Made by a program: the position numbers and the translations under genes
In this document: positions 10,416-36,749 of the stretch, piece by piece
Numbering within the stretch: position 1 is the first letter of the stretch
Layout of the letters: each line of letters begins with the position of its first letter
The notes under the pieces: generated by a model
Databases searched by the model: none
Told to the model about the DNA's origin: nothing
The model's input: only the letters and a program-made list of their open reading frames with translations
Assembly (NCBI GenBank): GCA_017615125.1
Contig: JAGAAS010000038.1
Span: forward strand, 1-53,817
Direction: 5' to 3'
Source: Bacteroidaceae bacterium
Lineage (GTDB): Bacteria > Bacteroidota > Bacteroidia > Bacteroidales > Bacteroidaceae
DNA: 53,817 bases

Positions 10416-10449
10416 TTCCATACTTTCCTTGAAGCAATCTTTCCCGCGT

Positions 10450-14716: not shown

Positions 14717-17629
14717 ATGAGTACCTGGAAACATCATGGTAACACGCGCGCCCTCTCATGGGTTGCGAGCCTGCTGCTTTTGTGTGTTGCTGCGCAGTCA
14801 TGTAAAGATGAGTATTTTTACGATGACGTAGAACCCGACTGGTTGGGCGCCAGCATCTACAACTATCTTGAAGAGCAAGGCAATTTCACTCTTTTCCTAA
14901 AAGTCATCGACGACCTCAACTACACCGAAGTCCTCTCGAAGACAGGTAGCAAAACGCTGTTTGCAGCCAACGATGAAGCCTTCCTCAAAGGCATCAAGGA
15001 TTCGTGGGGCCTCGACAGCTACGAACAGCTTTCTTCGGCTCAGAAGAAAATCATCCTCTACAACAGCATGCTTGACAATGCCTACTTGCTGGAGATGATG
15101 TCTTCGACAGCTGCATCGAGCGTATCATCCGACCCCGTCGAAGGACGATGCCTGCGTCAGGTCACCTCCGCTAACATCGTCGACTCCATCGGCTACTTCT
15201 ACGAGGAAGACCTGCCCAAGAACAACCAGTTCTGGGACGGCTTCCGCGAGAAAGGCATCCGCCTCGCCACCGACGGGACAAGCACCATGATGGTCCACTT
15301 CCTCGACGAGCAGCTCTACCAGAACAACATCAAGACTTCTGACCTGGAAGTGCTCTTCAACCACAGGTATGAAGGGATCACCTCCAACGATGCTTTCATC
15401 TTCGACAAGAAAGTCATCGATCAGAACGTCACCTGCAAGAACGGTTACGTGCACCAGCTTGATGGTCTTCTCATTCCGCCGTCGAACATGGCCGAAGAGA
15501 TTCGCCGCAATCCTAAGACACAGCTGTTCAGCAGACTGCTCGACCGTTTCTCCGCACCTGTCAAGAACCAGGAGCTGACCGATGATTACAACCGTCTCTT
15601 CCATTACGGCGACGACGCCTCTGCCGAAACCGTCTATGAGAAACGTTACTTCACGTCAGGAAGCAACCGAGGCTCAAGCAACTCAAGCTTCACCACGTTC
15701 ACCGATGAGAACGGTACGACGCAGAGCACCAAGGGTTCTCTTCTCTACGACCCGGGATGGAACAACTACAAGTCGGGAACGTCAGCCACCTCTTCTGCCG
15801 AGAACGATATGGGAGCCATGTTCATCCCCAACGATGCCACGCTGGAGATGTACTTCGAGAACGGAAAGGGTAAGGCCCTCATCGAGCGCTATGGAACGCC
15901 GGGCAAGTCTCTGGAAGAGAATATGGACTCCATTCCTCTTGACGTTGTTCAGGCTCTCGTCCGCAACGTCATGAAGACCTCCTTCAACAGCACCGTTCCC
16001 AGCAAGTTCGAGAGCATCATGAACGATGCACGCGAGAGCATGCACGTCTATGAAAAGGACATCGACGAAGTGATGATTTGCAACAACGGTGCCGTTTACG
16101 TCATGAACGAGGTTTACAGCCCCGCCCGTTACGTAGCCGTCATCGCTCCTGTCATGCTGAGCGAAAACACGCGCATCGCCTACTGGGCTATCAACCAGTA
16201 CGAATACGACAAGTACCTCCTTGCAATGGACAGCCGTTTCAGCTTCGTTGTTCCTACCGACGATTACTTCTGGTACTACGATGTTCCCACCCTCAAGAAC
16301 GCATCCACAGCTAATCCTCCCAGCCTTTACATCTTCCGATACAACGAGAAGGCCAAGACAGAGAAAGCAAAGGTTTATGCCGAGGAATGGCATTACGACC
16401 CCGTCACACGCGAACGGCTCGACAGCGTGGGCACACTTACCACCGAAGGAACCATCAAGAACCTCCTGCAGCAGATGATGGAATATTATATAGTAGTAGG
16501 AGACTTCCAGGATGGCAACAAGTACCACATGGCTAAGGGCTACGGAACCATCAAGGTTGAGACTGGCTCTCAGATTGACAGCAACGAAAAGCCTGTGGTT
16601 GAAAAGCTCTACGGAGGTTACGAAGTTCAGGAAGAAACAGGTGGACTCGTTCCCAGCAACATTTACCTTCAGGAGAACGGTAACACCTACTTCATCGACG
16701 GCATGATCATGCCACCGACGCAGTCCGTATACAAAGTTCTCAGCACGAATCCCGAATTCTCCGAATACTTCGCGATGGCGGGAACACCCTCCGAGGTAGC
16801 AGAGCTCCTCTCCGCAAAGAATGAAAAGGGAGAAGCTATCACAGACAGCCTTGCCCGATTCTTCACCTTCTGGGATATGGGAGGTATTGACTACAACATT
16901 CGTACCTTCAACACCTACCACTACACCGTCTATGTTCCTACCAACGACGCTATGGAGGAGGCACATCAGAATGGACTCCCCTACTGGGAAGACATTGAAG
17001 ACGACACGGAAGCTGTTAACAATGCGAAGGATGAAATCAACGACAACACAGTCGCTATCGGAGAGCTGCAGAACGACATTCTGCTGCTGAAGGCTAACGG
17101 AGCCTCACAGATAGAGATCGATGCCAAACAGGCAGAAGTCGATGCTCTCCTTGCAAAGAACGAAGAACTGGAAGAATACATCGCTGAGCTGACTGAAAGC
17201 ATCCGCAAGCGCACAATGCTCATTACCGACTTCGTTAAATACCACATCCAAGATAATTCAGTCTATGTCGACAACAAGCCGCACATGTTGATTGAAGGCG
17301 ACAAGACCTATTATCAGGTTAACTACGAAACAGCTACTCTCGACACCCAGACCAAGCGATTCAGCAAGGTCACCGTTGAGACAAAGGCAGGACCTTACGA
17401 CGGCAACACCATCTCCGTCAAGGGCGACATCGACGAAATCGACAACACCTGCTTTGTTGTGAACACGCCTGGTACGGAAGGCACGATGTTCAACATCATG
17501 ACTCGTGACCTCGAATTCTCGGGCAGAACTATCGAAACCTCTTCATTTGCCGTTGTTCATCAGATTGATGGCTACCTCGTAAACAGCCGTATTTTCAAGA
17601 ATGGCAAGTTCACAACCGAAAACGAATAA
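14717..17629 (+). CDS. FAS1 (fasciclin) domain lipoprotein with internal coiled coil
   Basis: A 970-residue lipoprotein with a lipobox ending at C29 (AAQSC). Several fasciclin-like domains are visible: the first at about residues 48-245 (KTLFAANDEAFL, then YVHQLDGLLIPP) and later ones with FIPNDATLEMY, VYVPTNDAMEE and VVHQIDGYLV. FAS1 domains typically mediate adhesion or ligand binding outside the cell. Residues of about 764-833 are strongly heptad-like (IGELQNDILLLKANG, ALLAKNEELEEYIAELTES) and appear inserted within the last FAS1 domain. It is the first gene of the block, 12 bp before susC. It probably forms a surface-exposed accessory of the SusCD complex, which is inferred from context. 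Confidence 0.8.
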   Translation: MSTWKHHGNTRALSWVASLLLLCVAAQSCKDEYFYDDVEPDWLGASIYNYLEEQGNFTLFLKVIDDLNYTEVLSKTGSKTLFAANDEAFLKGIKDSWGLDSYEQLSSAQKKIILYNSMLDNAYLLEMMSSTAASSVSSDPVEGRCLRQVTSANIVDSIGYFYEEDLPKNNQFWDGFREKGIRLATDGTSTMMVHFLDEQLYQNNIKTSDLEVLFNHRYEGITSNDAFIFDKKVIDQNVTCKNGYVHQLDGLLIPPSNMAEEIRRNPKTQLFSRLLDRFSAPVKNQELTDDYNRLFHYGDDASAETVYEKRYFTSGSNRGSSNSSFTTFTDENGTTQSTKGSLLYDPGWNNYKSGTSATSSAENDMGAMFIPNDATLEMYFENGKGKALIERYGTPGKSLEENMDSIPLDVVQALVRNVMKTSFNSTVPSKFESIMNDARESMHVYEKDIDEVMICNNGAVYVMNEVYSPARYVAVIAPVMLSENTRIAYWAINQYEYDKYLLAMDSRFSFVVPTDDYFWYYDVPTLKNASTANPPSLYIFRYNEKAKTEKAKVYAEEWHYDPVTRERLDSVGTLTTEGTIKNLLQQMMEYYIVVGDFQDGNKYHMAKGYGTIKVETGSQIDSNEKPVVEKLYGGYEVQEETGGLVPSNIYLQENGNTYFIDGMIMPPTQSVYKVLSTNPEFSEYFAMAGTPSEVAELLSAKNEKGEAITDSLARFFTFWDMGGIDYNIRTFNTYHYTVYVPTNDAMEEAHQNGLPYWEDIEDDTEAVNNAKDEINDNTVAIGELQNDILLLKANGASQIEIDAKQAEVDALLAKNEELEEYIAELTESIRKRTMLITDFVKYHIQDNSVYVDNKPHMLIEGDKTYYQVNYETATLDTQTKRFSKVTVETKAGPYDGNTISVKGDIDEIDNTCFVVNTPGTEGTMFNIMTRDLEFSGRTIETSSFAVVHQIDGYLVNSRIFKNGKFTTENE

Positions 17630-17641
17630 AACTCAGGTATT

Positions 17642-20600: not shown

Positions 20601-21007
20601 TAGACGTTGTCAATGCTGCGCGAATGAACGTAGAGAATATGTACACCAACAACAACCAGAGTATCGCCGTTAACTGGCGCTGGCGCAAAGAAGGCGACCA
20701 GACTTTGATGCCGCGTGCATTGTACAATACCGGTTACAATTTCTTGGGTAGCGACAGATATGTGGAAGATGCTTCCTATGTACGTTTCTCTTACCTGCAG
20801 CTTTCATATAGCTTCGATCCTCAGTTCGTGAAGAAGCTCCGCCTTAACAGCCTCTATCTCTCTGGCTCTGCCAACAACTTGTTCGTATGGTCTAACTATA
20901 CAGGTCTTGATCCTGAGATTCCTGTCGGAGGATGGGGTTGCGCAACTGACAATTCAAAGACTCCGCGTTCAAAATCGTTTACGCTGGCTCTTACTGTCGG
21001 ATTCTAA
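17642..21007 (+). CDS. SusC/RagA-family TonB-dependent outer-membrane transporter
   Basis: A 1121-residue protein with a signal peptide ending near TFAQ. A carboxypeptidase-regulatory-like domain covers about 22-100 (ISGNVSDDFGPMMAVNVVEL). The plug domain covers about 115-265 (IAGLDIVFNSGDLGSG, LRGTSTINGNAEPLIVV, IEVLKDASACAIWGSRG, GVIQIKTKRG), and a long beta-barrel with aromatic C-terminus (TLALTVGF) follows. It imports a ligand captured by its SusD partner, using TonB energy. The barrel has normal SusC length. It is followed after 29 bp by susD. No hybrid two-component or ECF sigma regulator is adjacent. Confidence 0.92.
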   Translation: MKIYKYILTAVMCLLASGTFAQTRISGNVSDDFGPMMAVNVVELDKDNRIVEHATTDFDGNFVMLVKNTKDKLKISYVGYKEQVLEIGTRTVFNIKMKDDNQLDVVEITAKPRSDTNGLNILEREVSVAKQTFNMSEMEGLSFQSVDEALQGQIAGLDIVFNSGDLGSGTQMRLRGTSTINGNAEPLIVVNGNIFEMPSGQEDFDFSTANEESFAQLLTVNPEDIESIEVLKDASACAIWGSRGSNGVIQIKTKRGTRGKTRVTYSYRYSNSWLPKGLNLLNGDNYTMLLKEEHFNPRQSSTASDAEELNYNPTFSEYENYNNNTDWVSAISQHGQTHDHNISLTGGGDRATFRVSGAYYHQTGSVIKQELDRLSTRMALDYFVSDRIKVSSDFALTYTDNPSNYSGLLSAAQIIMPNMSIFAQDPQGNDTQDYYIMLQTASSIFDNNQKTTLNPVAVGNLAWKNTKSYRITPQISMDYNLLGLNNDETQLKYYGMVYMDYATTADADYFPISLSTKGWTDSGNNKSSTSDNKTLSFNTRHRLNFTPHFSNEKHFFTMMGQWEMTIGNGSSQGASSYGIPTHITSPTTGSYLSTSSTSTWQWRSMAMSFSAVYSYMGGRYSATATLRRDGSTKFGAAHKWGNFPGFSVRWNIVDEPWMKWSREKAKLSMLSIRSGVGQSGSQPGSEYLHYTVYGEAGKYMDMTAMQQGGLRLTDLKWARKTETNVGTDIGFFDDRLTADVNVYWNNTTDQLMNNYNIPSSNGYTSLAYRNTGTVSNHGWELTVNGNKFIKIGDFSMNCYVNVGQNFNRIEEMEETILSNQNEDYNFSNSKYLGRIQVHNPLGSFYGFHYLGVYEYSYKNWEKALAKLDDPDYTPSRIVAYEKDALGNATTPIYGASCPIAYDDEGKVIYGANGKPLQMVFGYEEGSSIYSFRGGDAIYEDINHDGNINELDIVYLGNSNPAAQGGFGLTFMYKRLQLKTQFTYRYGVDVVNAARMNVENMYTNNNQSIAVNWRWRKEGDQTLMPRALYNTGYNFLGSDRYVEDASYVRFSYLQLSYSFDPQFVKKLRLNSLYLSGSANNLFVWSNYTGLDPEIPVGGWGCATDNSKTPRSKSFTLALTVGF

Positions 21008-21036
21008 AAAACGCCTTCTATTATATAAATATTTAA

Positions 21037-22806
21037 ATGAAAGGAACAATGAAACATTCATTCAAAATATTTTCCATTGCAGCCGTAGTAACTATGGCCC
21101 TGATGATGTCGGGATGTCAGGACTTCCTTACCATCTATCCTACAGACAAGGTGGTTCTTGAGAATTACTGGAAAAACAAGAACGACGTTGAAACAATGGT
21201 TGCCAACAGCTATCGCAAATTGGCAGAGAATGACTTTATTACCCGCCTTTTGGTATGGGGAGAACTGCGCTCCGACGATGTATGCGAAGGCAGCAACCTT
21301 GGTACAGAGCTGAAATATATCAACGATGCCAACCTGCTCCCAACCAACTCCTATTGCTCATGGGAGATTTTCTACTCGGCCATCAACAATTGCAACATTG
21401 TCATGAAATTCGCCCCAACGGTGCTTGAGGAAGACCCCGACTTCACGCAGGGCGATATGGATGTAATTCGCGGTGAGATGTTAGCCATCCGCGCATTGTG
21501 CCATTTCTATCTGGTTCGTACCTTCCGTGATATACCTCTCTTGAAAGAAGCTATGGTGGACGACACTCAGGACTTGTTCCAAGACCAGGTTCCTCCTCTT
21601 GAAGCACTTGACTTCATCTTGGAAGACCTCTACGAAGCAGAAGGACTTGTGATGACCTCTGGTGCATACGCTGACCTTAACTACAACAAGGGACGCATCA
21701 CGGCAGATGCAGTACGCGCAATGATTGCAGACGTAATGCTTTGGAAAGCAGCCTTCACGCAGTACAAGAACAAAAGCGACGGAAGTGATTGCTATGAGTA
21801 CTACACCACCTGTATCAACTACTGCGAGCGTATCATCAACGACCGTAATAATTATATAGAGGAGTATGAGAAGAAGAACAACAACGGACGTGTCACGAGC
21901 GGAGGAGAAGGGGCTGGAAATCCTTCAGTCATTGGATACCCGCTTAACACATATCCTCAAATGATGGGTATGTCGAGTGATACCGATCCCTATTCTTCTC
22001 TCTTCGGCGAGGACCAAAACGACCTTAAAGAAAGTATCTTCGAGATTCAAGGACATATAAACAACAATCCTCATTACGCCACTAATCAATTATATGGTTA
22101 CCAGAATAATGCTGCCCTATTCAATGCCACCAGCCTGCTGGGTGGACAAGGAACGGACATCAATCTCTATAAGAAGACTGACTTGAGACGTTACTCCTAT
22201 ACGAAAGAGGGAGGAGAAGAAGACGTATATAATGTTGCAAAATACACGCAAACAAATGTTAATTATACGACGACCAGCAATCCTCCTTACAAGACCAGCT
22301 ACACTCCTCGTCAGACCAATAGTGACGGTAGTTCTTCCACTAACTGGATTGTCTATCGTATAACAGACGTCATGCTGATGGAAGCCGAAGCTCTTGCTTT
22401 GCGTAACGACACCACGTTGGGCGACGAAGCCAAAGCATTCAAGCTGGTAAAGGCAACATACTATCGTTCCAATCCTCCAGCCGTTAAGGTTGCTCGTGCT
22501 GACTCTATTAACTTGAACAATGGTATCGTTCCTTTGGTTCGTGATGAACGCCAGCGTGAACTTTGCTTTGAAGGCAAGCGTTGGTACGACCTGGTTCGTT
22601 GGGCTCTTCGCGACGGAAACACCACATCCATGTTGAACGAACTGGTTTCACGCAAATATGAAACCAATCAGAATGCAGTAAAGAGCAAGATGGCTAACAT
22701 CGACAAGCTCTTCTTCCCTATCTCTGAAAGTCAGATTAAGACCAGCAATGGACACCTGAAGCAGAATCCTTCGTACAATACGGAAGATGTTTATCAGAAA
22801 AACTAA
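21037..22806 (+). CDS. SusD/RagB-family outer-membrane lipoprotein
   Basis: A 589-residue lipoprotein with a lipobox ending at C27 (MMSGCQDFLTIYPTD), the typical SusD opening. A second ATG at 21049 would give a neater signal peptide; the upstream start is given here. The family hallmarks YWKNKNDVETMVANSYR and GEMLAIRALCHFYLVRTF are present, and the C-terminal region with QRELCFEGKRWYDLVRW is classic. It caps the SusC barrel and binds the substrate. The partner is the preceding susC, and the downstream FAS1 gene starts after 12 bp. Confidence 0.92.
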   Translation: MKGTMKHSFKIFSIAAVVTMALMMSGCQDFLTIYPTDKVVLENYWKNKNDVETMVANSYRKLAENDFITRLLVWGELRSDDVCEGSNLGTELKYINDANLLPTNSYCSWEIFYSAINNCNIVMKFAPTVLEEDPDFTQGDMDVIRGEMLAIRALCHFYLVRTFRDIPLLKEAMVDDTQDLFQDQVPPLEALDFILEDLYEAEGLVMTSGAYADLNYNKGRITADAVRAMIADVMLWKAAFTQYKNKSDGSDCYEYYTTCINYCERIINDRNNYIEEYEKKNNNGRVTSGGEGAGNPSVIGYPLNTYPQMMGMSSDTDPYSSLFGEDQNDLKESIFEIQGHINNNPHYATNQLYGYQNNAALFNATSLLGGQGTDINLYKKTDLRRYSYTKEGGEEDVYNVAKYTQTNVNYTTTSNPPYKTSYTPRQTNSDGSSSTNWIVYRITDVMLMEAEALALRNDTTLGDEAKAFKLVKATYYRSNPPAVKVARADSINLNNGIVPLVRDERQRELCFEGKRWYDLVRWALRDGNTTSMLNELVSRKYETNQNAVKSKMANIDKLFFPISESQIKTSNGHLKQNPSYNTEDVYQKN

Positions 22807-22818
22807 AAATTTATTATC

Positions 22819-24945
22819 GTGAAAACGAAACGTTTCTCCCAAATAAGAAAGACAATAGGCTCAACCATTCTGGTTGCTGCCTTGATGATGCTATTCGGTT
22901 GTCGAGAAGAAATCGACACCAGCAACCGCTATACATTTGTGGGAAACACGGTTGCAAGCTTCCTAGAGGAGCATGAAGACTTATATGGAGATTTCATCTA
23001 CATCCTGAAACGCGGTGAGAAATGGAACCTAATGAAAGCATACGGAACATACACCTGCTTTGCTCCAACCAACGATGCAATTGAACGATATCTGAAAGAA
23101 CAGGATTCCATCTACTGGGATTCAAAGGCGCGTCACGATGCGGATGGGAAGACGAAGATTAAATGGACAGGGATCACTTCTCCCAAATTGGAAGACATGT
23201 CAGACTCCATGTGTACCATCGTTGCTCAGACGCATATTCTCCCTGCCACATATCTCACGACAGAGATGGAAGGAGATATCGTTCCAACCATGAACCTCAA
23301 CGACCGTTATCTGACAATGACCTATGGCGTGGATTCATTGCTGAAGAGCATTCTTTACATCAATGGGGCACAAGTCATTGCTGCTGACGAGGAAGTGGAG
23401 AACGGAGTCGTACACACTCTCTCCGCTGTGATGAATCCTTCGTCAGAAACAGTTCCCACTATTATTGAGAATATGAAGTTCCTCTCCATCTTCTCTGAGG
23501 CGCTGGATGTGACTGGTTTGACCGATAAGTTGCAAGCCTATAAGGATTATTCTTATACCGACGGAGATAAAGTAACTGTAAACATTTATAATGATCGTTT
23601 CAATGTACCCTACCCGCCAAGTCGGTATTACGGCTTTACTGCCTTCGTCGAGCCAGATTCCGTATACCAAGCTGCGGGAATATACAGCATAGACGATTTA
23701 TATAAGCAATGTAAGATTTGGTATCCGAATGCAACCGATCCAGACTTCAAGAGTGAGAACAATGCGCTGCACAAGTTCATCTCCTATCACCTGCTGGATC
23801 GCAAACTGCTCTACTCTCGTCTTACTTGCTACAAAATCACTTGCGGAGGCTACTTCAATTCGGAATCTGTCTTTCTGACTCGTGCAGACCGTTACGATTA
23901 TTTCGAAACCATGCAAGGAACGTTGCTGAAGGTTATTCGTCCACTCAGCAATGCTACTCGTGGCATCTGCGATGACGGAGTAGAACGTTCATACAACCAA
24001 TGCATTTTCTTGAATTATACGAATGATCCAGATGTGCTTTCTGCTAGTACAGGTGCATTCAATGTAACATGCGGTCCAAGAAACGTTCCCGTTAATATCC
24101 GCGTTATGGATCCGTCTGTGGTTTCAAGTGACAAAGTCAAATACCCCAACTTCTTACAGGAAGCGCTCAATGGTTCCATCCATCTTATAGACCACTTCTT
24201 GGTTTATGATGAGGACGTGATGTCGGGTTTTGTACTTAACGGCATCATCCGCATCGATTTCTCTTCGATTGCTCCCGAATACACCAATAACAATATTCGC
24301 TGGAGCGATGGAAAAGGTATAACTTTTGCAGACAGAGGAGACTATGAGTTCTATATTCCTGGCACATATAGCGACCGAATCAAATACAATCACGACAAAG
24401 CTCGCTTGTATTATCTGAGCCCGCACAACAGTTGGACAAACTATATGGGCGACGAGTGTATGTGCATAGGCCCTATCGACATTAGCTATCGTCTGCCGCA
24501 CGTTCCTCCTGGGACCTACGAGATGCGCTTCGGCTATCAAGGTATACCCCAAAGAGGAATATCCCAGTTCTATTTCGACGATGAGATTACAGGCATCCCT
24601 GTAGACCTACGATTAAGTGCAAGGGAGAATCCACGTGTCGGCTGGGTTTCGGATGCCCAGACAGATGACAATGGAGTCGTCAACGACAAGCAAATGAAGA
24701 ACCGCGGCTTCCTGAAGGGTAGCACCCAATATAATGCCTACGGTCATTTGGCCCGTCATGAACCAACGGTTATCCGTGTTGTGCTGACGACGAAATACCT
24801 TGACGGAGGAGATCATTGGTTCCGTGCCAAGAACGTCAATGAATCAGACGACGGACTAGACCAGTTCATGCACGACTATATTGAGTTTGTCCCTGTCGGA
24901 TGGCTTCGAAACGAAAACATCTCTCTTGAAGAGAAACGAAAATAA
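22819..24945 (+). CDS. FAS1-domain lipoprotein, paralogue 1 of 3
   Basis: A 708-residue lipoprotein starting at GTG (22819), 12 bp after susD, with a lipobox ending at C28 (MMLFGC). The FAS1 domain at about 35-205 has the H1-like motif YTCFAPTNDAIERYL and the H2-like NGVVHTLSAVMNPS. A second FAS1-like region covers about 215-475 (FLSIFSEALDVTGL, NALHKFISYHLL, NGSIHLIDHFLVY). The C-terminal 230 residues are beta-rich (DDEITGIPVDLRL, VPVGWLRNENISLEEKRK) and shared with the next two genes. It is probably a surface adhesion or ligand-binding accessory to SusCD. Confidence 0.8.
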   Translation: MKTKRFSQIRKTIGSTILVAALMMLFGCREEIDTSNRYTFVGNTVASFLEEHEDLYGDFIYILKRGEKWNLMKAYGTYTCFAPTNDAIERYLKEQDSIYWDSKARHDADGKTKIKWTGITSPKLEDMSDSMCTIVAQTHILPATYLTTEMEGDIVPTMNLNDRYLTMTYGVDSLLKSILYINGAQVIAADEEVENGVVHTLSAVMNPSSETVPTIIENMKFLSIFSEALDVTGLTDKLQAYKDYSYTDGDKVTVNIYNDRFNVPYPPSRYYGFTAFVEPDSVYQAAGIYSIDDLYKQCKIWYPNATDPDFKSENNALHKFISYHLLDRKLLYSRLTCYKITCGGYFNSESVFLTRADRYDYFETMQGTLLKVIRPLSNATRGICDDGVERSYNQCIFLNYTNDPDVLSASTGAFNVTCGPRNVPVNIRVMDPSVVSSDKVKYPNFLQEALNGSIHLIDHFLVYDEDVMSGFVLNGIIRIDFSSIAPEYTNNNIRWSDGKGITFADRGDYEFYIPGTYSDRIKYNHDKARLYYLSPHNSWTNYMGDECMCIGPIDISYRLPHVPPGTYEMRFGYQGIPQRGISQFYFDDEITGIPVDLRLSARENPRVGWVSDAQTDDNGVVNDKQMKNRGFLKGSTQYNAYGHLARHEPTVIRVVLTTKYLDGGDHWFRAKNVNESDDGLDQFMHDYIEFVPVGWLRNENISLEEKRK

Positions 24946-24963
24946 CAAGCAAACGAAAAGAAA

Positions 24964-27015
24964 ATGAGAAAACGGTTCCTTTCCATAGCCTTGAGTGCTC
25001 TCCTTGTGGCATTTGGCTTAACGGTATTCAGCTGTGTCGATGAAATTGACACCAGCAACCGCTATACCTTCACGGGACACACCGTCGCAAGTTTCCTCGA
25101 AGAACATAGTGATCTGTACAGCAGTTTCATCACCATTCTCAACCGAGGAGGCAAGATGAACCTGTTGAAAGCCTATGGAACGTACACCTGCTTTGCTCCT
25201 ACCAACGATGCAGTTGAACGCTTTTTGATAGAACAAGACTCTATCTATAAGGCCTCATTGCTTCCCGGCTCTAAAAAAGTTGTCTGGACGGGTGTCACCT
25301 CACCCAGGCTCGAGGATCTGTCGGATTCAATGTGTACTGTCATCTCGCAGACTCACATCCTCCCCGCCACGTATCTCACGACGGAAATGGAAGGCGACGT
25401 CATCCCGACGATGAACCTGAACGACAGATATCTGACAATGACTTACGGAGTGGATGAAAACCAAAATGCAGTTCTTTATATCAATGGTGCTAAAGTGATT
25501 GTCCTTGACGAAGAAGTGGAAAACGGCGTCGTGCATACGATTGCAGATGTCATGAACCCCTCTTCCAATACCGTTTCTGCTCAGATCGAGAGCATGAAGT
25601 TCCTCTCATTGTTCTCCGAGGCGCTGGAAAAGACAGGACTTGACAACAAGCTTCAGGACTACAAGGACTACAGCTACACCGAAGGCAACAAACGAGGCAT
25701 AGGCATTTACGGAGACGTAACTGTTCCCTACCCTCTGAACCGCTACTTCGGCTTCACGGCTTTCTGCGAGACAGACCAGACGTTCAACGATTTAGGCATC
25801 TACAATCTGGACGACTTGTATAAAAAATGCAAAGAGTGGTATCCAAAAGCTACCGATCCTGACTTTACAAGCGAGGACAATGCACTCAACAAGTTCATCT
25901 CCTATCATTTAGTAAACAAGAAACTGTTGTACTCCCGACTCGTCTGCTACAACATCAAGGTAATGGGAATCTACAATTCCGAGTCAAACTATCCCAAGCG
26001 TGCCGACAGATACGAGTATTACGAGACGTTGCAAGGGACATTGTTGAAGGTGACAAGGCCTATCAGCAATGCAGCCTACTCGACGGACCTGCTTATCAAC
26101 TACACGCCGATGCTCTCAAATTCCGCAGATCCCTATCAAGTCGAGTACAACGGGATACCTGTCAACATCAAGATTCTTGATCCTACTGATGTGAAAGCCG
26201 ACACAACGCATTACAAAGGATTCACACAAGAGGCGCTTAACGGCTCCATCCACCTTATTGCCCACCCGCTCATCTATAACGAAGATGTGATGGCAGGTTA
26301 TGTGCTGAACGAAATCATGCGCTTCGACTTCTCATCATTGCTTCCAGAGCTGACGAACAACGACATCCGCTGGACATCCGGCAACAATGTGGTGTTTGGC
26401 ACGAGGGGCGACTACGAATTCTACCTGCCTGACGGCTACTGCAAGAATTCGATTTATAATACAGCCGAAACTCGGCTCTACTATCTGAGTCCGCATACAT
26501 CCTGGGCCAACTATCAGGGAGACGAAATGATGTGCCTCGGAGCTTTCGATTTTGAATATCGCTTGCCGCACGTGCCAGCTGGGACATACGAAATCCGTAT
26601 GGGCTACTCAGCAAACGGAAACAGGCATATCGTTCAATTCTATGTAGATGACGAAATTGCCGGCATCCCAGTAGACCTCCGAATCACAGCCAATAATGCC
26701 ATCATCGGATGGGTTTCAGATGCCAATACCGATGATAACGGCGTCGCCAACGATAAGGAAATGAAGAACCGCGGATACCTTAAGGGTCCCACCACCTTCT
26801 ATTATGGAGGAAGCACCTTGGCTCGCAACTATAACGGAGACATCCGTAAGGTCATCACGACTAAATATTTAGGTACTGGTGATCATTGGATCCGCTTCAA
26901 GAATGTAAAAGAAGACGATGACGGAAAAGCCCAGTTCATGCACGACTACCTGGAGATAGTTCCTGTTGGCTGGTTACGCCGCGAAGACATCTCCTTAGAG
27001 GAAAAACGTAAATAA
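24964..27015 (+). CDS. FAS1-domain lipoprotein, paralogue 2 of 3
   Basis: A 683-residue lipoprotein with a lipobox ending at C24 (TVFSC). Its domain order matches its neighbours: CVDEIDTSNRYTF, FAS1 (YGTYTCFAPTNDAVERFL, NGVVHTIADVMNPS), a second FAS1-like region, and a beta-rich C-terminal domain ending VPVGWLRREDISLEEKRK. It begins 18 bp after paralogue 1 and arose by tandem duplication. It shares more of its C-terminal phrases with paralogue 3 (SANGNRHIVQFYVDDE, NRGYLKGPTT) than with paralogue 1. Confidence 0.8.
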   Translation: MRKRFLSIALSALLVAFGLTVFSCVDEIDTSNRYTFTGHTVASFLEEHSDLYSSFITILNRGGKMNLLKAYGTYTCFAPTNDAVERFLIEQDSIYKASLLPGSKKVVWTGVTSPRLEDLSDSMCTVISQTHILPATYLTTEMEGDVIPTMNLNDRYLTMTYGVDENQNAVLYINGAKVIVLDEEVENGVVHTIADVMNPSSNTVSAQIESMKFLSLFSEALEKTGLDNKLQDYKDYSYTEGNKRGIGIYGDVTVPYPLNRYFGFTAFCETDQTFNDLGIYNLDDLYKKCKEWYPKATDPDFTSEDNALNKFISYHLVNKKLLYSRLVCYNIKVMGIYNSESNYPKRADRYEYYETLQGTLLKVTRPISNAAYSTDLLINYTPMLSNSADPYQVEYNGIPVNIKILDPTDVKADTTHYKGFTQEALNGSIHLIAHPLIYNEDVMAGYVLNEIMRFDFSSLLPELTNNDIRWTSGNNVVFGTRGDYEFYLPDGYCKNSIYNTAETRLYYLSPHTSWANYQGDEMMCLGAFDFEYRLPHVPAGTYEIRMGYSANGNRHIVQFYVDDEIAGIPVDLRITANNAIIGWVSDANTDDNGVANDKEMKNRGYLKGPTTFYYGGSTLARNYNGDIRKVITTKYLGTGDHWIRFKNVKEDDDGKAQFMHDYLEIVPVGWLRREDISLEEKRK

Positions 27016-27045
27016 AAAATTATGTTCAAAGAATAAAAAATTTTC

Positions 27046-27095
27046 CCTTCTCCAAAAAAAATTATTCTTTCTTCATACGGCGAGATTCCTTCTCC
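27046..27095. repeat. Dispersed CATACGGCG element, copy 3, inside the FAS1 operon
   Basis: The 41 bases at 27046-27086 are identical to 7043-7083 and include TTCTTTCTTCATACGGCGAG. The trailing arm differs (CCTTCTCCAAAAA rather than AGAAAGAA). It fills most of the 110-bp gap between paralogues 2 and 3, whereas other gaps in this block are 12-50 bp. Confidence 0.8.
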
Positions 27096-27125
27096 AAAAA
27101 TTAATATAAAGAAATAAGGAAAACG

Positions 27126-29186
27126 ATGAAACAACTTACCATACTCAAACGACTTACAGCAAGCATACTCGTACTTGCTGCGGGGTTCTGTGTGGTAAGC
27201 TGCGTTGAGACAATTGACCAGAGCAACCGATACACCTTTACCGGCAACACGATAGCCAGCTTCCTTGAAGAGCACAATGAAATGTATAGCGATTTCATCT
27301 ACATCCTCAAACGGGGCGGAAAGTTCAGCCTGCTCGAAGCCTACGGCACCTACACGTGCTTCGCTCCGACGAACGATGCTATAAAGAGGTATCTGTTCAA
27401 GCAAGACTCCATTTACTGGGATTCGAAAGCGCGGCATGATGCCGACGGCAAGTCCAAGATCATCTGGACAGGTATTACTTCGCCCAACCTTGAGGAACTC
27501 TCCGACTCAATGTGCACCGTGATTGCCCAAACTCATCTGCTGCCGCAGAACTACCTCACTACGGAAATGGAAGGAGACGTTATACCGACTATGAACCTGA
27601 ACGACAGATACCTGACGCTCTCTACGAGCAGCGACAGTACCGGGCGCTTCCAGCTCTTTGTCAACGGAGCGCTTGTCATTGCCTCCGACGAAAAGGTTCA
27701 GAACGGTATCCTGCATACGATCAGCGACGTCCTGAATCCCTCCTCCAACACCGTACCGGCTCAGATCGAAGATATGCCGTTCCTTTCCATCTTCTCCGAA
27801 GCATTAGAAAAGACAGGATTGAGCAATAAGCTACAAGCATATAAGGACTTCTCCTATGTAGATGGTGAAAAGACCGCAGGCAACTTCGACGGTGACGGAT
27901 TGAGCCCCTACCCCATGACGAAGTATTACGGATTCACAGCCTTCGTAGAGCCTGATGCCGTTTATCAGGCCGAAGGAATCTATTCCATCGAAGACTTGTA
28001 TGAAAAGTGCAAGGAATGGTATCCCGAAGCTACGGATGCCGACTTCACAAGCGCCAATAATGCTCTCAACAAGTTCGTTGCCTACCACTTAGTCAACAAG
28101 AAACTGCTGTTTACCCGACTCGTTTGCTACAACATCCAGCAAACAGACTTCAATTCCGAAACGAATCTGGTAAAGCGCTCCGACAGGTTTGAGTACTACG
28201 AGACGTTCCAGAACACGCTGCTTAAGGTGACTCGTCCTCTCAGCAACGCTATGTATCAGTCAGACGTGCTTATCAACTATTCCAGAGACATCCCCACAAA
28301 CGGGAAGCCTTACGAAGTGACGATGAACAACATTCCCGTCAACATCAAGATACTTGATCCGAGCAACATCAAAGTCAACAAAGAAAAATACCCCAACTAC
28401 AACAACGAAGCCATCAATGGTACAATACAGTTGATTCAGCACCTGCTCATCTATAACGAAAACATAATGAGCGGTTATGTCCTGAATGAAACGATGCGTT
28501 TTGACTTCTCATCGCTTGCGCCTGAGTTTACCAACAACAACGTTCGCTGGTGCCCACGAGGGCAAGCAGGGATTCTTAACGAGTTGGAGTACTACATCCC
28601 CAATGGCTACGCCTCTACTATTATTTACAATACTGAAGAGACACGCCTCTATTATCTCTGCCCGCAACAAAGCTGGCACAACTATCAAGGAGACGAAATG
28701 ATGGGACTGGGAGCCTTTGACTTCAAATACAAACTCCCCCCTGTTCCAGAAGGGACATACGAACTGCGAATGGGATATTCTGCCAACAACAACAGACATA
28801 TCGTTCAGTTCTATGTCGATGATGAAGTAACGGGAATCCCCGTTGACCTGCGCATTCTTCTTAGTGATCCAAATATCGGATACGTTGCCGACAGCAACAC
28901 CGACGACAACGGTATTGCCAACGACAAGGAAATGAAGAACCGCGGATACCTGAAAGGCCCTACTACCTATTATTATAATGGTAGCACCCTAGCCCGTAAT
29001 GACAACTCAGTAGTCCGTAAAGTCATCACCACCAAGTATCTCGGAAAAGGAGATCATTGGCTACGTTTCAAGAATGTAAAGGAAGATGACAACGGAAAGG
29101 CACAATTCATGCACGACTATCTGGAGATAGTTCCCGTTGGATGGATGCGCCGTGAAGATATTTCGCTTGAGGATAAACGTAAATAA
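27126..29186 (+). CDS. FAS1-domain lipoprotein, paralogue 3 of 3
   Basis: A 686-residue lipoprotein with a lipobox ending at C26 (CVVSC). The FAS1 motifs YGTYTCFAPTNDAIKRYL and NGILHTISDVLNPS are present. The second FAS1-like region and the beta-rich C-terminal domain (YSANNNRHIVQFYVDDE, NRGYLKGPTTYYY, ending VPVGWMRREDISLEDKRK) match the two preceding genes. It is separated from paralogue 2 by a dispersed repeat and from the next FAS1 gene by 42 bp. Divergence between the three copies is concentrated in the second FAS1-like region and the loop sequences, as expected if they bind different ligands; that is inference. Confidence 0.8.
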   Translation: MKQLTILKRLTASILVLAAGFCVVSCVETIDQSNRYTFTGNTIASFLEEHNEMYSDFIYILKRGGKFSLLEAYGTYTCFAPTNDAIKRYLFKQDSIYWDSKARHDADGKSKIIWTGITSPNLEELSDSMCTVIAQTHLLPQNYLTTEMEGDVIPTMNLNDRYLTLSTSSDSTGRFQLFVNGALVIASDEKVQNGILHTISDVLNPSSNTVPAQIEDMPFLSIFSEALEKTGLSNKLQAYKDFSYVDGEKTAGNFDGDGLSPYPMTKYYGFTAFVEPDAVYQAEGIYSIEDLYEKCKEWYPEATDADFTSANNALNKFVAYHLVNKKLLFTRLVCYNIQQTDFNSETNLVKRSDRFEYYETFQNTLLKVTRPLSNAMYQSDVLINYSRDIPTNGKPYEVTMNNIPVNIKILDPSNIKVNKEKYPNYNNEAINGTIQLIQHLLIYNENIMSGYVLNETMRFDFSSLAPEFTNNNVRWCPRGQAGILNELEYYIPNGYASTIIYNTEETRLYYLCPQQSWHNYQGDEMMGLGAFDFKYKLPPVPEGTYELRMGYSANNNRHIVQFYVDDEVTGIPVDLRILLSDPNIGYVADSNTDDNGIANDKEMKNRGYLKGPTTYYYNGSTLARNDNSVVRKVITTKYLGKGDHWLRFKNVKEDDNGKAQFMHDYLEIVPVGWMRREDISLEDKRK

Positions 29187-29228
29187 CATATACAGCATCA
29201 ACAAAGACAATAAATCAATCCAACCAAT

Positions 29229-30941
29229 ATGATGAAAAAGAGTATCATTCAAAACACAGTGTTAGTTATTCTCCTCGTCAGCGGACTCACGGCCTGCAAC
29301 GACTCATGGGACGATCACTACGGGGTGAAAGAAACTTTGAATCCGACAGAGACTCTGTGGGACGCTATCAGTAGCCGCAGCGAACTTAGTGAATTCGCTA
29401 ACCTACTCTCACGTACCGACTACAAAGATCTGTTTCAGCAGGATCGCTACTTTACCGTTTGGGCTCCTTCTAACGGATTTGGCTATTCGGAAGACAACGA
29501 CAGCCTCTTGCAGGCTGAGTTCGTAGAAAACCATGTGGCAGACTTCAGTCATGTGGCTTCAGGAACGCTAACTGACAATCAGATTAAGATGATTAACGGG
29601 AAGTACATCTTCTTTAACGGGGCCAACGGAAGCTACACGTTCAAGGGACACCCGCTAACATCTAAGAATATTGCCACAAAGAACGGCATTCTTCACATCA
29701 TCACCGGGTATGCCAACTTCACGTCAAATCTTTGGGAGAATCTGGCAAAAATTGATTCCCTCTCCGAAGTCAATTCTTTCCTGAAATCATTCAACAAAGA
29801 ATACTTCGACAAGAACAACAGTGTGGCAGGCCCCATCATCAATGGTCAGCAAACCTATCTTGACTCTGTTGTCATCGAAAATAACGAGTGGTTCGGGCGC
29901 ATAGGATATCTTGCACGCGAAGACAGTTCATATATAATGATTGCGCCTACGAACAAAGCATGGCGTGAACAGTTCGAGATTGCACGTCAGTATTATAAGT
30001 ATCCTTCAACGAAAGCCGACGGAGATTCTCTTCAAGACCTGAATGCAAAACGGGCTATCTGCAATCATCTTGTATTCAGCAAAGCTGTCAACCATCTCAA
30101 GGCAGAAGACAATAGCGACATTCTCTCGCAACTCTCCATCCACAACGGAGATTCACTCATCTCTAATTATAACTATCGTGGCGGTTCTTGGAGAAACACA
30201 ACCATCTTCTATGAGAAGAAGAACCAAGAGTTGAGCAAGCTCTTTGAGAACAAGATAGGAGAATACGAATTGAGCAATGGTTCGATGTACGTAGTTGACA
30301 AGCTCAACTATTCACCGCTGAAATGCTGGCACGATACCATCACTTTGGAAGGTGAGAACCAATTCAACATTAGCGTACAATATGCATCGCCAGATAATGT
30401 AGTCATTAGCAGAGACAGCACAGCACTTCGCAAACGCATTCCAAGCGGCGCGTATTGCGTGTTCAATCCCTCTTCTGGTACCAGTAACCCGAAAATCACG
30501 GCTACGTTGAATAACGTTCTGTCTGCTCCGTATCTTATCAAGATTGTCTTTGTTCCTGCCAACCTTATTGACAAGAGCGTTGATCCCCTCTATCCGAATG
30601 TAATCACCATTCAGCTTCAGTACAAAGACGCAAACGGAAAATCACAGACGGCTACGCTTGCAAGCAAGGTTGAAAACGATCCCACAAAGATTGACACTAT
30701 GGTAGTTAGTGCTGCCGGTATCAAGGGTAACCCGACGGATTACTTCCGCTTCCCTGTCAACGAATATAATCTTGAGAATGGCGAAGAAGCTATGACTAAG
30801 TTAGTCATCACGGGACAAGTAACATCTCGTCAGAAAGATAAAGACCGTACAATCCGCATCGACAAGATCTTCCTTGAGCCTATCGATGCAGATGCCTATG
30901 ACAAAGAACATGCCAACGATAATGAAGAAGGCAACGAATAA
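29229..30941 (+). CDS. FAS1-domain lipoprotein (fifth FAS1 protein of the block)
   Basis: A 570-residue lipoprotein with a lipobox ending at C23 (SGLTAC), followed by NDSWDDHYG. Two FAS1 domains are visible. The first covers about residues 38-160 (FTVWAPSNGFGY, NGILHIITGYANF). The second covers about 170-365 (YIMIAPTNKAWREQF, SNGSMYVVDKLNYSP). A beta-sandwich C-terminal region of about 200 residues follows (KIVFVPANLIDKSVDP). It is more distant from the three paralogues and lacks their terminal VPVGW segment. It lies 33 bp before the second susC. Confidence 0.78.
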   Translation: MMKKSIIQNTVLVILLVSGLTACNDSWDDHYGVKETLNPTETLWDAISSRSELSEFANLLSRTDYKDLFQQDRYFTVWAPSNGFGYSEDNDSLLQAEFVENHVADFSHVASGTLTDNQIKMINGKYIFFNGANGSYTFKGHPLTSKNIATKNGILHIITGYANFTSNLWENLAKIDSLSEVNSFLKSFNKEYFDKNNSVAGPIINGQQTYLDSVVIENNEWFGRIGYLAREDSSYIMIAPTNKAWREQFEIARQYYKYPSTKADGDSLQDLNAKRAICNHLVFSKAVNHLKAEDNSDILSQLSIHNGDSLISNYNYRGGSWRNTTIFYEKKNQELSKLFENKIGEYELSNGSMYVVDKLNYSPLKCWHDTITLEGENQFNISVQYASPDNVVISRDSTALRKRIPSGAYCVFNPSSGTSNPKITATLNNVLSAPYLIKIVFVPANLIDKSVDPLYPNVITIQLQYKDANGKSQTATLASKVENDPTKIDTMVVSAAGIKGNPTDYFRFPVNEYNLENGEEAMTKLVITGQVTSRQKDKDRTIRIDKIFLEPIDADAYDKEHANDNEEGNE

Positions 30942-30974
30942 TAACTGTTCCTATAACCTAAAAAAAGAAAAACA

Positions 30975-33900: not shown

Positions 33901-34916
33901 GAGTTAAAATCAATACGGATTTCTATCATAATGTAACTAACAACCTTCTGACGACAAAAACGCTTAACAGCATCTCTGGTATACAAGACTATTGGTGCAA
34001 TGGAGGTTCGTTAGAGAACAATGGCTTTGACGTTAATGTCTTGGGTAGAATCATTAACACCAAGAACTGGAAGTGGGAACTTGGAGCTAGCGCCGCACAT
34101 TACCGCAACGCCATCACTTCTCTCCCCGATGGAGATACGTATATGAACGGAAAAGATGGAGAGCTCTATGGCTATACGACTTCCATTTATGACGGAACCA
34201 TCCTTACAGCTGTGGGCCAGCCTGTAGGCGTTTTCTATGGCTACGCAACAGACGGAGTCTATTCAACAGCAGAAGACGTTCCCTCACAAAACGGAGTAAT
34301 GCTTTCTACCTTGAATACCGTAACAGGAAAGACGACTCAATTCGGAGCTGGCGATGTTAAATTCATCAACCAGAATAACGACAACGTTATTGACGAGAAA
34401 GACAGAGTCATCATCGGCAATCCCAACCCCGACTTGTTTGGAAACATTATTTCGAACCTTTCATACCGTCATTTCACTCTGAGTGCTATTGTGAACTATG
34501 TATATGGAAATGATGTGTACAACTATCAGCGTAGCTTGCTTGAAAGCGGTAGCACCTTCTATAACCAGACCGTAGCAGTATGCAACCGTTGGCAAACCGA
34601 AGGTGATGTAACATCCATTCCTAAGACTTCTTACGGAGATCCTATTGGAAACAACCGCTTCTCTGACCGATGGATTGAAGACGGATCGTACCTCCGTCTT
34701 AGGAACTTGACCCTCTCATATAAGGTTCCCGTATCTCTCTCATGGCTCCAAGGCCTTACTGTATGGTGCGAAGCTAACAACCTCTTCACTCTTACCAATT
34801 ACCTGGGTAGTGATCCTGAGTTCTCGTTTAGCAACAATGTCCTCTATCAAGGTATTGATGCAGGTTTACTTGGACAAAGCAGGAGTTTCCACCTTGGCAT
34901 GAAGATCAACCTCTAG
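30975..34916 (+). CDS. SusC-family transporter with N-terminal OmpA-like domain
   Basis: A 1313-residue protein, about 200 longer than the first SusC here. After the signal peptide, residues 45-135 look OmpA/Pal-like (VTIQFDVYFPLDSYEIDP, SKASPEGPFNRNN, LAQKRSEAVKAYF). Residues 215-273 are a Val/Glu/Pro-rich linker (EPVVVEEPVVLEEEKPVV). Residues 274-350 are carboxypeptidase-regulatory-like (MTKLTGRIVDAVTKEPLPGV), and about 375-483 is the plug (MLIQGVNSLNTSAQPLVVL, ISVLKNGTAFYGAKGANG, GVILINTKRG), followed by the barrel. OmpA-like domains usually contact peptidoglycan, so the fusion could tether or gate the transporter. Its SusD follows after 51 bp. A second ATG at 30987 is possible. Confidence 0.85.
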   Translation: MKTNMKKQLRLAIAFTFCFACFAGTVLTYAGNNSTAAPSCIQSAMVIEQYAPGENVTIQFDVYFPLDSYEIDPKYMGNAESLKKLADAIKTVGAENISSIDVVSKASPEGPFNRNNWLAQKRSEAVKAYFAKNYPSLKGKLKTQSDGEAWDELRDQIKKDQKLSESTKSRIYKVIDNPANRKQELKEVLGSDANVGDVYEYLFDTYYPYLRKSNISVESPAPKKQEPVVVEEPVVLEEEKPVVEEPVVVDVPVIAEEPVEEQVKVAEQPVPANMTKLTGRIVDAVTKEPLPGVRVEGFGNNRYTSMTGEDGTFSLNIPEAVTSLYVSTPGYNSVVIPARQPEKDIEIYDEVFSAFAKNEFDVTAKAFTDVDLTTVLSAEGELQRKLGADVRTITRSGTPGMGALMLIQGVNSLNTSAQPLVVLDGVIQDLQDGYSAVHEGFFNNILAGIDVDDIDNISVLKNGTAFYGAKGANGVILINTKRGHSMATRIDVKAYGGYTMKPLLPEMMNASQYRTYANELMGGVTTTKTRFPFLWNDPNNYYYNMYHNETNWSDYVYRGAWSQNYKVNVQGGDEAAMYNFSLGYSDAQSTVKCNDFNRLNIRFNTDIILSDKLKTRFDIAFSRIARDLRNDGIPSNLNAEPVSSPGFLALIKAPFLSPYKYSSIGTLTSAYEGADVFANFDVNSRNNSYANPLSIFEFGAGNNKNNQEYTVFDVTIAPEWSLGKGFTAYALFNYTLHRTNEKYFRPLTGSPKFYIAGLGYSENEVRSFFSKESSVFGNIHLDWTKRFGDHTVYATAGSRFSNFAYDSKYQSCHNTGNDKLPDISAAYDFLDQEGLYDVWRNLAYYVNADYNYRNKYFLQGTLTAETSSRFGRDTESGLKAAGVCWGIFPGIQAGWLISAEPWFSTKVVDFLKLTAGFEQSGNDNVGNNAAFAYFGTVKYQGKAMGLSLKKIGNQSIQWETTNRANVGLETVLFNNRVKINTDFYHNVTNNLLTTKTLNSISGIQDYWCNGGSLENNGFDVNVLGRIINTKNWKWELGASAAHYRNAITSLPDGDTYMNGKDGELYGYTTSIYDGTILTAVGQPVGVFYGYATDGVYSTAEDVPSQNGVMLSTLNTVTGKTTQFGAGDVKFINQNNDNVIDEKDRVIIGNPNPDLFGNIISNLSYRHFTLSAIVNYVYGNDVYNYQRSLLESGSTFYNQTVAVCNRWQTEGDVTSIPKTSYGDPIGNNRFSDRWIEDGSYLRLRNLTLSYKVPVSLSWLQGLTVWCEANNLFTLTNYLGSDPEFSFSNNVLYQGIDAGLLGQSRSFHLGMKINL

Positions 34917-34967
34917 TATTAGCATCATCTAGTGTGTAACTAACTATTAAAAAACAATTCACACAAT

Positions 34968-36749
34968 ATGAAAAGAAAATCATCCATAATCGTACGTCTA
35001 ACGTCAGTCGTAATAGCGTTGACAATGGTATCATGTGCCGATATGTTCGACATCAGTTCCAATAGTGTCGTTTATGAGAAAGTAAATGACCTTGGAAGCA
35101 CAGCTGACTCCATTTACTCTACGCTTGGTATTCTTCACAACCTGCAACAGATAGCAGACCGTTATATCATCCTTGGTGAAGTACGTGGTGATCTCGTTGA
35201 CATTAACGACAATACGAAGGCTTCTCTCCGTAACATCTCTGAGTTTAACTTCGATGCTGATAACGAGTATCTCAATGTGCGTGACTACTATGCCGTTATC
35301 AACAATTGTAACTACCTCATCGCCCACATGGATACGACTCTGGCACATAACAACAAGAAAGTTATGCTCGATGAGTACGTAGCTGCATTGGCTGTTCGAG
35401 CTTGGACTTATCTCCAGCTTGCCATCAACTATGGAAAAGTTCCCTTCTTCACACAGCCCATTATGACTGTTGCGGAATCGGAGGCTGACTATCCCAAGCT
35501 TGATGTTGCAGAAATCGGAGCCAAGCTCATTCCCGAGCTGCTTCCTTTTGTCAGCAAAGACTACGAGTTACCCTCCTGGACTGGTATCTCCAATAGCGGT
35601 GGAAGTGCACAGAACCTCTTCCCTCCCCTTCAGCTTGTCATTGGCGACTACTACTTATGGTCACAAGATTACCAGAATGCTTGGGATACATATTACGCCT
35701 ATCTGACCAAGAATTTTGACATCTTCGCAAATCTCCCCACAGGAGGTGAAACTACTAAATTCCCAGGACTCGTTCCCTTGGGCTCAGGGCGTGCTTACCT
35801 TTATGACAATCGTTCAACATCTCCCTCTACGATGAATTATGGATATACCAGTTTCCTTAATATCTCCATATTAGGTAGTGGATCAGAGGCTCTGATGGTA
35901 ACGCCTATGGAAAACAGCACTGAAGACGGAACTGTATCTGAAGTTGCCAGTCTTTTCTATGCAGACGAGAACACGCATCAGCTTATTGGATCAAACCTTT
36001 GGGAAGAGATTAGCGACAAGCAAGCATACTGCATGGGTTCCAACGATGCTACTAAGCCAAATGAATTTACCCTTTATTCCAGCAAGGGGGATCAACGTCG
36101 TGAAACGGTGATTACTGAAGTAAAAGACGATGAGCTGGAGTATGAGATGATTAATAAGTTTGCATCCAGCACTGCCCTTTCGCCTGACGGTAGACGTATC
36201 GCCGTATCGCGCTACTTGATATTCTATCGTCGTGCCCTTGTCTACCTGCGTGCAGCTGAAGCGCTCAACTGCCTGGCTGAGCAGCAAGGCGACGGAGAAA
36301 AGGCTCTGCAGGCTTTCAGTTTGCTGAAGGACCCGTTTGACCTCCTTTTCCCCATCGGAGGCGAAAATGATTCATACCGTCCCTATCGCACAGATATGCG
36401 TCGGTCTTTACTTGGAGTTCATGCACGCGGATGCGGAGAGACCTATCTCGATACCACCATCTATGTAGTGAACCCGACAGCTATTGCCCTCTACTATAAC
36501 TATGATCCAGAACAGACAATTACCTTCTCCGATACTATCCACTACGTTGAGGACCGAATTGTTGACGAGCTGGCTCTTGAGATGCCGTTTGAGGGTAACC
36601 GCTTTACAGACCTTGTCCGTATAGCCAATCATCGCGGCGCAGAATACCTCGCAAACAAAGTAGCTTGCAGGAAGGGTTCGGAGAATCGCGACGAAACATT
36701 GTACAACAAACTGCTCAACAAAGAAAACTGGTATCTGCCATTCAAATAA
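34968..36749 (+). CDS. SusD/RagB-family outer-membrane lipoprotein (second pair)
   Basis: A 593-residue lipoprotein with a lipobox ending at C23 (ALTMVSC). SusD features include the TPR-like helices AALAVRAWTYLQLAINYGKVP, the mid-region YLIFYRRALVYLRAAEALN, and the C-terminal LEMPFEGNRFTDLVRIANHRG. It is the expected lid of the OmpA-SusC barrel encoded just upstream. It is the last surface gene of the block, and the amidase gene starts only 12 bp after its stop. Confidence 0.88.
   Translation: MKRKSSIIVRLTSVVIALTMVSCADMFDISSNSVVYEKVNDLGSTADSIYSTLGILHNLQQIADRYIILGEVRGDLVDINDNTKASLRNISEFNFDADNEYLNVRDYYAVINNCNYLIAHMDTTLAHNNKKVMLDEYVAALAVRAWTYLQLAINYGKVPFFTQPIMTVAESEADYPKLDVAEIGAKLIPELLPFVSKDYELPSWTGISNSGGSAQNLFPPLQLVIGDYYLWSQDYQNAWDTYYAYLTKNFDIFANLPTGGETTKFPGLVPLGSGRAYLYDNRSTSPSTMNYGYTSFLNISILGSGSEALMVTPMENSTEDGTVSEVASLFYADENTHQLIGSNLWEEISDKQAYCMGSNDATKPNEFTLYSSKGDQRRETVITEVKDDELEYEMINKFASSTALSPDGRRIAVSRYLIFYRRALVYLRAAEALNCLAEQQGDGEKALQAFSLLKDPFDLLFPIGGENDSYRPYRTDMRRSLLGVHARGCGETYLDTTIYVVNPTAIALYYNYDPEQTITFSDTIHYVEDRIVDELALEMPFEGNRFTDLVRIANHRGAEYLANKVACRKGSENRDETLYNKLLNKENWYLPFK

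Follow-up and report, generated by a model that had tools for sequence, protein, structure and literature searches.

The importers encoded by polysaccharide utilization loci (PULs), including those assembled into 'utilisomes', combine SusC barrels, their SusD partners and additional lipoproteins on the cell surface, and RagAB is a SusCD relative that takes up peptides. According to the main text of one report, the pectin-backbone locus NQ544_01765-01830 of Segatella copri holds two SusCD pairs, with a gene fragment lying between them, and one surface glycan-binding protein (SGBP-B). CE8, GH95, PL1 and GH28 genes lie near it, and the locus is raised on homogalacturonan and rhamnogalacturonan I, one SusCD pair weakly (PMC11784079). 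A SusD-containing, cellulose/hemicellulose-like PUL of Gramella portivictoriae has a gene labelled FAS1 (PMC4891872). The locus analyzed here lies in a stretch of 53,817 nucleotides from a Bacteroidaceae bacterium (contig JAGAAS010000038.1 of assembly GCA_017615125.1), called the window below. At positions 14717-36749, nine genes on the + strand encode, in order, a FAS1 (fasciclin) protein, SusC, SusD, three FAS1 proteins, a further FAS1 protein, an OmpA-SusC fusion and a second SusD. This gene cluster is genuine. It represents one copy of a set whose gene order is preserved across many Bacteroidota. The block is likely to encode a conserved two-transporter outer-membrane glycan importer, in which FAS1 lipoproteins with carbohydrate-binding-module (CBM)-like domains replace SusE, SusF and SGBP-type proteins.

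The core of the gene set has seven genes, F1-C1-D1-F2-F5-C2-D2 (F, FAS1; C, SusC; D, SusD). Their order is fixed, two distinct SusC lineages each adjoin their own SusD, and three kinds of FAS1 protein have lipoprotein-type starts. Among 128 further groups of stretches, 88 were complete in this order and 10 lacked only F2. The remaining 30 were partial or had uncalled genes, many of them stopping at the end of a contig or stretch, and kept the same order. None of the 128 groups had a shuffled order, and this recurrence without a shuffled case indicates that the order is above chance. An earlier note on this DNA had counted a lack of conservation in relatives as evidence against a common machine; the linkage between FAS1 and SusCD genes is conserved well past close relatives.

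An F5 match was found in 26 of 61 related genomes and in 17 of the 19 genomes of the genus, the source genome included. Surveys of the phylum and the class covered 395 genomes each, with three candidates scored per genome. At E 0.001 the F5 model matched 135 genomes of the phylum survey, in most cases over a short FAS1 segment. Matches that were both long and strong came from seven distant genomes; all seven showed the full gene order, as did one genome from another family of the same taxonomic order. The class survey gave a match at E 1e-20 in 14 genomes, and eight more modules read from it all had the full order, one being identical with L081. A family survey with a second F5 type matched 43 of 201 genomes, many weakly. 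All ten modules read from it were in order, with no D1 called in L242/L243; in the L244/L245 module F5 was not called when the order was read, yet the family survey places F5 there. Named genomes were also scanned with C1, and the best 80 of 476 loci were read. These named loci belong by title mainly to Bacteroidaceae, Prevotellaceae and other Bacteroidales metagenome-assembled genomes; two are from isolates with names, Paraprevotella xylaniphila YIT 11841 and Prevotella communis E15-14.

When 27 C1 and 27 C2 proteins were placed in one tree with 16 other SusC proteins, the C1 and C2 clades each had a support of 1.0, and the other 16 grouped together at a support of 0.56 only. Pairwise distances of F1, C1, D1, F5, C2 and D2 across 98 modules correlated with r values of 0.90-0.98, which include shared descent and close relatives and are support rather than proof. 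These comparisons support the view that the FAS1 lipoproteins and the SusCD pairs belong to a single conserved unit. The separate SusC lineages of C1 and C2 would also suit two independent SusCD loci lying side by side with FAS1 genes by chance, and tandem SusCD pairs are known from a xylan locus in the published text (PMC11784079). Such a coincidence is highly improbable, as all 128 groups fit one order and the internal gaps of the block lack a promoter motif.

The open reading frames and families of the block were as the earlier note had given them, with intergenic gaps of 12, 29, 12, 18, 110, 42, 33 and 51 bp, in order. The five FAS1 proteins exceed the PF02469 cut-off of 22 bits and have the FAS1 fold: F1 (14717-17629, 970 residues, 55.2 bits), F2 (22819-24945, 708 residues, GTG start, 50.4 bits), F3 (24964-27015, 683 residues, 56.9 bits), F4 (27126-29186, 686 residues, 54.0 bits) and F5 (29229-30941, 570 residues, 48.4 bits). 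The TonB-dependent transporters C1 (17642-21007, 1121 residues) and C2 (30975-34916, 1313 residues) scored 639.5 and 565.0 bits with the whole-length NCBIfam model TIGR04056 for SusC/RagA (cut-off 368.25), and both have a Plug domain (53.7 and 27.3 bits; Pfam cut-off 23.9). With the TIGR04057 signature (cut-off 46.2), C1 was above at 56.9 bits and C2 below at 40.9. D1 (21037-22806, 589 residues, 90.7 bits) and D2 (34968-36749, 593 residues, 31.4 bits) exceed the cut-off of 23.1 for SusD_RagB (PF07980), each adjoining a SusC gene. A stricter lipobox pattern matched F4, F5, D1 and D2; it missed F1-F3, in each of which a cysteine follows a hydrophobic stretch.

About 80 bp 5' of F1, a Bacteroidota-type promoter motif (14594-14635, + strand) has TTTG near -33 and TATATTTG near -7, following what we take to be the promoter consensus of the phylum. 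The motif TAnnTTTG was absent from the internal gaps of the block and from the gap between D2 and the following amidase gene; it occurs three times on the + strand within the whole of 14717-36749. Because the gaps are short and a promoter motif was found 5' of F1 and none internally, the nine genes look like a single transcription unit, possibly extending into the amidase gene. Transcription would start from one promoter about 80 bp 5' of F1. Separate promoters would, according to the earlier note, have spoken against one machine; no promoter motif was seen in the internal gaps. A generic sigma-70 scan was uninformative (32 sites against 26.5 expected), and an Rfam scan of the window gave no match. 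Further upstream on the + strand, a terminator-like hairpin (14051-14090) with a 12-bp perfect stem and a 10-nucleotide loop, followed by ATTTTT, was read directly from the sequence, the hairpin scan having listed loops of 3-8 only. It stands right after the gene of a PD40 beta-propeller lipoprotein and would set the upstream genes apart from the block.

F3 shares 64% identity with F2 and 67% with F4, and judged from their sequences the five FAS1 genes are of three types, with F2, F3 and F4 as tandem copies of one. The surplus of FAS1 over SusD subunits that had been remarked upon is real in gene number, five being present, but reflects a local triplication of F2 rather than five kinds of protein. 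HHalign placed FAS1 domains at residues 49-258 and 675-753 of F1, with weak matches at 368 and 508, so F1 appears to have at least two FAS1 repeats and probably four; it had no match among PDB sequences at E 0.01. The AlphaFold models of F3 and F5 both had a mean predicted local distance difference test score (pLDDT) of 88.0. Each has two FAS1 domains (37-439 in F3, 38-368 in F5) followed by a CBM-like domain (448-671 and 367-555). Structural matches of the FAS1 parts were TGFBIp and periostin. The C-terminal domains have the beta-sandwich fold of CBMs in these models, and no CBM family of Pfam was matched in F1-F5 at E 0.01. The closest structures to the sandwiches were a xanthan-lyase domain and the xanthan-binding module MiXBM, and CBM35 modules, some solved with uronic acids, ranked lower. 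The F5 sandwich also matches those of Cry toxins and laminin, so that sugar binding is not established by the fold alone.

Across 64 aligned proteins, R453, R545, R554, K598, N602, R628 and R644 in the last domain of F3 are invariant, and these basic and polar residues would suit an acidic glycan ligand. Since the F3 and F5 models carry CBM-like ends, substrate capture, one of the roles previously suggested for the FAS1 proteins, is a sensible one. A role as lids is unlikely because a SusD gene stands beside every SusC gene. For a protein or host surface as ligand, likewise suggested before, no evidence was found in the present analysis.

The source genome, a 3.03-Mb draft that is 87% complete, has 20 FAS1 matches and five copies of the core, in the window and on contigs 80, 40, 24 and 88, with no F1 called in the contig 88 copy. 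Seven of its 17 PF07980 matches lie within FAS1-SusCD modules. Three further module SusD genes, missed by that model, were found by a BLAST search that covered only the module surroundings. Orphan F2-like genes are present on contigs 32 and 98. Orphan F2-type FAS1 genes (L013:9208-13533 and L012:8340-10445) are 50-56% identical to F2-F4, with no SusCD in the stretches read. CotH-kinase proteins were observed near FAS1 modules or orphan FAS1 genes (46036-51318 of the window, L009:2-2368, L012:5401-8316, L052 and L055, the last two by BLAST only); one has a dockerin and one has ricin-type lectin domains.

The genes adjoining other copies of the module point to a substrate class. The contig 24 copy is flanked by two pectinesterases, GH28, a hybrid two-component regulator, an alpha-L-rhamnosidase and a protein with no Pfam family, for which a pectate lyase of solved structure was matched at E 3.6e-70. 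Around the contig 40 copy are a DUF4450 protein, a weak GH95 match and a pectate-lyase-like protein. An enzyme panel of 15 families was built from seed proteins taken from flanks already seen. The PL11, GH10, GH43 and GH51 seeds were named by eye and later supported by Pfam (for GH43 and CE12, those of the seeds that were scanned); the PL1 seeds were supported by PDB sequence matches, the second also matching the lyase VexL. Within the stretches retrieved, pectin-type genes lay near 12 of 14 B-type copies (those on contigs 24, 40 and 88, that of G026 and ten further ones) compared with one of nine control SusCD loci of the source genome outside FAS1 modules, the control stretches being shorter than the module stretches and the single match being a CE12-type esterase. 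When the two seed suppliers, contigs 24 and 40, were left out, the count was 10 of 12, and for the ten further copies by themselves it was 9 of 10. Four of the twelve positive copies (G026, L244, L250 and L256) were scored on a PL1-type match only. Six of 16 other copies had pectin-type genes, a partly circular count as five of the six supplied seeds. In G133 there are rhamnose genes near the module that the panel does not represent. One flank of the G351 module has rhamnulose-phosphate aldolase, RhaT, mannonate dehydratase and KduI above their cut-offs and rhamnose isomerase below, and the other has GH88/105, a GDSL esterase, GH28 and GH106. No named cultured carrier of the B type was secured, as the search gave no match in Prevotella communis (G492) and two weak ones in Paraprevotella xylaniphila (G491).

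Several observations weigh against a single substrate, as some copies adjoin enzymes for xylan or mannose glycans and some adjoin none. GH10 and GH43 adjoin four Paraprevotella-type loci, GH92 adjoins three copies and GH51 one, and GH125 was checked in one. No panel gene was found near several copies, including those on contigs 80 and 88. Among the named loci, whose stretches include little downstream flank, 12 had a panel match, 9 an enzyme and 4 a pectin-type gene. A constant enzyme partner of the copies found with C1 was sought among the two nearest upstream neighbors per locus of at least 220 residues, DUF6057 and PD40 proteins excluded. In 78 scanned proteins of 104 selected, the commonest Pfam families were chorismate synthase (8), GH67 (3) and RGL11_C (2), and the idea of a constant partner was dropped. 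GH106 was rejected as a genome-wide marker: the sole genome copy adjoins the module in G107 and G351 and is distant or on another contig in G133, G250, G302, G121, G441, G043 and G026. RhaA was uninformative as a marker in G351 and G133, whose isomerase type is missed by the Pfam model. The most likely ligand class is plant cell-wall polysaccharide, mostly pectin or rhamnogalacturonan I where neighbors are telling.

The FAS1 lipoproteins might instead act chiefly in adhesion, anchoring the cell to particles of plant material or to its fellow cells while the SusCD pairs merely share the patch. This appears unlikely, because one fixed order with two SusCD pairs holds in 98 of the 128 groups (complete or without F2 only), FAS1 divergence is correlated with that of SusC and SusD, and 12 of the 14 B-type copies adjoin pectin-type genes.

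No enzyme domain was found in the nine proteins of the block (Pfam at E 0.01; NCBIfam), in agreement with the earlier note. This is a local trait of the window copy and of many A-type copies; most B-type and several distant copies adjoin pectin or rhamnogalacturonan genes. The block by itself lacks the degradative enzymes that, with SusCD in the same locus, define a PUL, whereas B-type relatives have them adjoining. The nearest upstream enzyme candidate, a protein with a glycosyl-hydrolase catalytic core (514-3246, PF11790), is encoded 5' of the hairpin and the promoter motif.

An operon without an enzyme leaves room for the window copy to import a non-glycan cargo such as a peptide, a cofactor or a cell-wall fragment, unlike its pectin-linked relatives, and RagAB is a precedent for peptides. 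The flanking genes could be taken in the same sense. The tenth same-strand gene encodes an amidase (Amidase_3, 36762-37991, + strand), starts 12 bp 3' of D2 and is possibly co-transcribed with the block. In all ten genus genomes read, an amidase gene follows the module; a small ORF intervenes in two of them. Upstream on the + strand are the genes of a DUF6057 membrane protein (10429-12519), kept in the window's subclade, and of the PD40 lipoprotein (12551-14044). However, window F3 and F5 retain their CBM-like domains, and the amidase adjoins mlaD in the same genomes, so that a functional link with the module is not required. The two genes span 36762-40934, followed by dnaA in six genus genomes and by other genes in three, with one stretch ending earlier. 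The DUF6057 and PD40 genes stand 5' of F1 in 15 of the 80 named loci, and DUF6057 is not specific to the module since it occurs in 54 of 101 genomes. Import of a non-glycan cargo therefore has a rather low probability, slightly above that of adhesion. The PD40 protein also has a CxxCH motif, which is of the heme type. Farther upstream, 7217-8515 encodes a lipoprotein without a Pfam match at E 0.01 that is 88% identical in the relative G005; its HEISHALG stretch resembles what we take to be a zinc-metallopeptidase motif.

C2 has about 225 extra residues (about 26-250), an OmpA domain and a Pro/Glu-rich linker, between the signal peptide and the usual N-terminal extension. The OmpA domain (PF00691) scored 25.9 bits, slightly below the cut-off of 27.2. 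The insert is missing from C2 of two genus relatives that were aligned, and none of the other C2 proteins read showed the fusion. These are much shorter, with at most 1112 residues in the named loci and at most 1151 in the modules read from the genus and from the phylum and class surveys. The best match outside the window among 19 genus genomes was a 63% identical cassette on a different SusC in G003 (L148:10289-14032), so the cassette appears to be mobile among SusC genes. The genome is a draft, and an assembly error is the less likely explanation because both SusC proteins have the insert fused in frame directly behind their signal peptide.

As a glycan importer, the block would work as follows. 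Both SusCD pairs would act as TonB-driven pedal-bin importers, with the FAS1 proteins on the cell surface around them in the place of SusE, SusF and SGBP-type proteins. The FAS1 parts may be spacers that also contact other proteins, and polysaccharide chains may be caught by the CBM-like parts. Oligosaccharides cut outside the cell by enzymes coded next door, or elsewhere in the case of the window copy, would then pass to SusCD. Since the window copy keeps all parts and has no local enzyme, it would have to rely on enzymes from other loci or on fragments that neighbors set free. A more far-reaching proposal, which we regard as possible but rather doubtful, is that two ancient SusCD lineages are bridged by three FAS1 kinds, two of them CBM-ended, into one obligate complex in several Bacteroidota families. 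This would be a second glycan-importer architecture beside SusCDEFG, which handled acidic glycans of plants at first and was later adapted to xylan, mannose glycans and further ligands, and to which the window lineage added a peptidoglycan anchor through OmpA-SusC.

If the importer reading is correct, much of the SusCD repertoire of this gut genome (7 of its 17 SusD-family matches and the three missed module SusD genes) belongs to one unrecognized importer type, and such importers are overlooked where FAS1 genes receive adhesion-protein labels. FAS1-SusC-SusD-FAS1-FAS1-SusC-SusD could be annotated as one unit. Bacterial FAS1 domains would gain a testable role, which may explain FAS1 genes in published plant-fiber loci, and the two-barrel complexes would become a structural target. 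No description of a FAS1-SusCD unit was found in the open literature searched. The parts are known and their combination is apparently undescribed there, so the earlier suggestion of an undescribed machine holds for that literature.

Among SusC proteins with a known structure, 8aa4 and 5t3r matched best, for C1 as well as for C2; we take 5t3r and 8aa4 to be levan and dextran systems. The S. copri locus is similar to the B-type copies on contigs 24 and 40, their identity being a lead rather than a result, and the main text of that paper contains neither 'FAS1' nor 'fasciclin' (PMC11784079). The G. portivictoriae PUL shares with the block a FAS1 gene in a SusD locus, for which the text available gives no order or role (PMC4891872). 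TGFBIp, periostin and other FAS1 proteins (reviewed in PMC6032426) share the fold and the tandem FAS1 domains with the block proteins, which in contrast are bacterial lipoproteins with a CBM-like end and a linkage to SusCD. The BtuB-BtuG vitamin B12 importers, as outlined in the text consulted, likewise pair a TonB-dependent transporter with surface lipoproteins, but have another ligand and use the lipoprotein as a lid, whereas each SusC of the block already has a SusD (PMC10404256). Compared with SusCD PULs and 'utilisomes', the block differs in that it joins two distinct SusCD pairs into a fixed unit without an enzyme or regulator, in which FAS1-CBM proteins replace SusE, SusF and SGBP.
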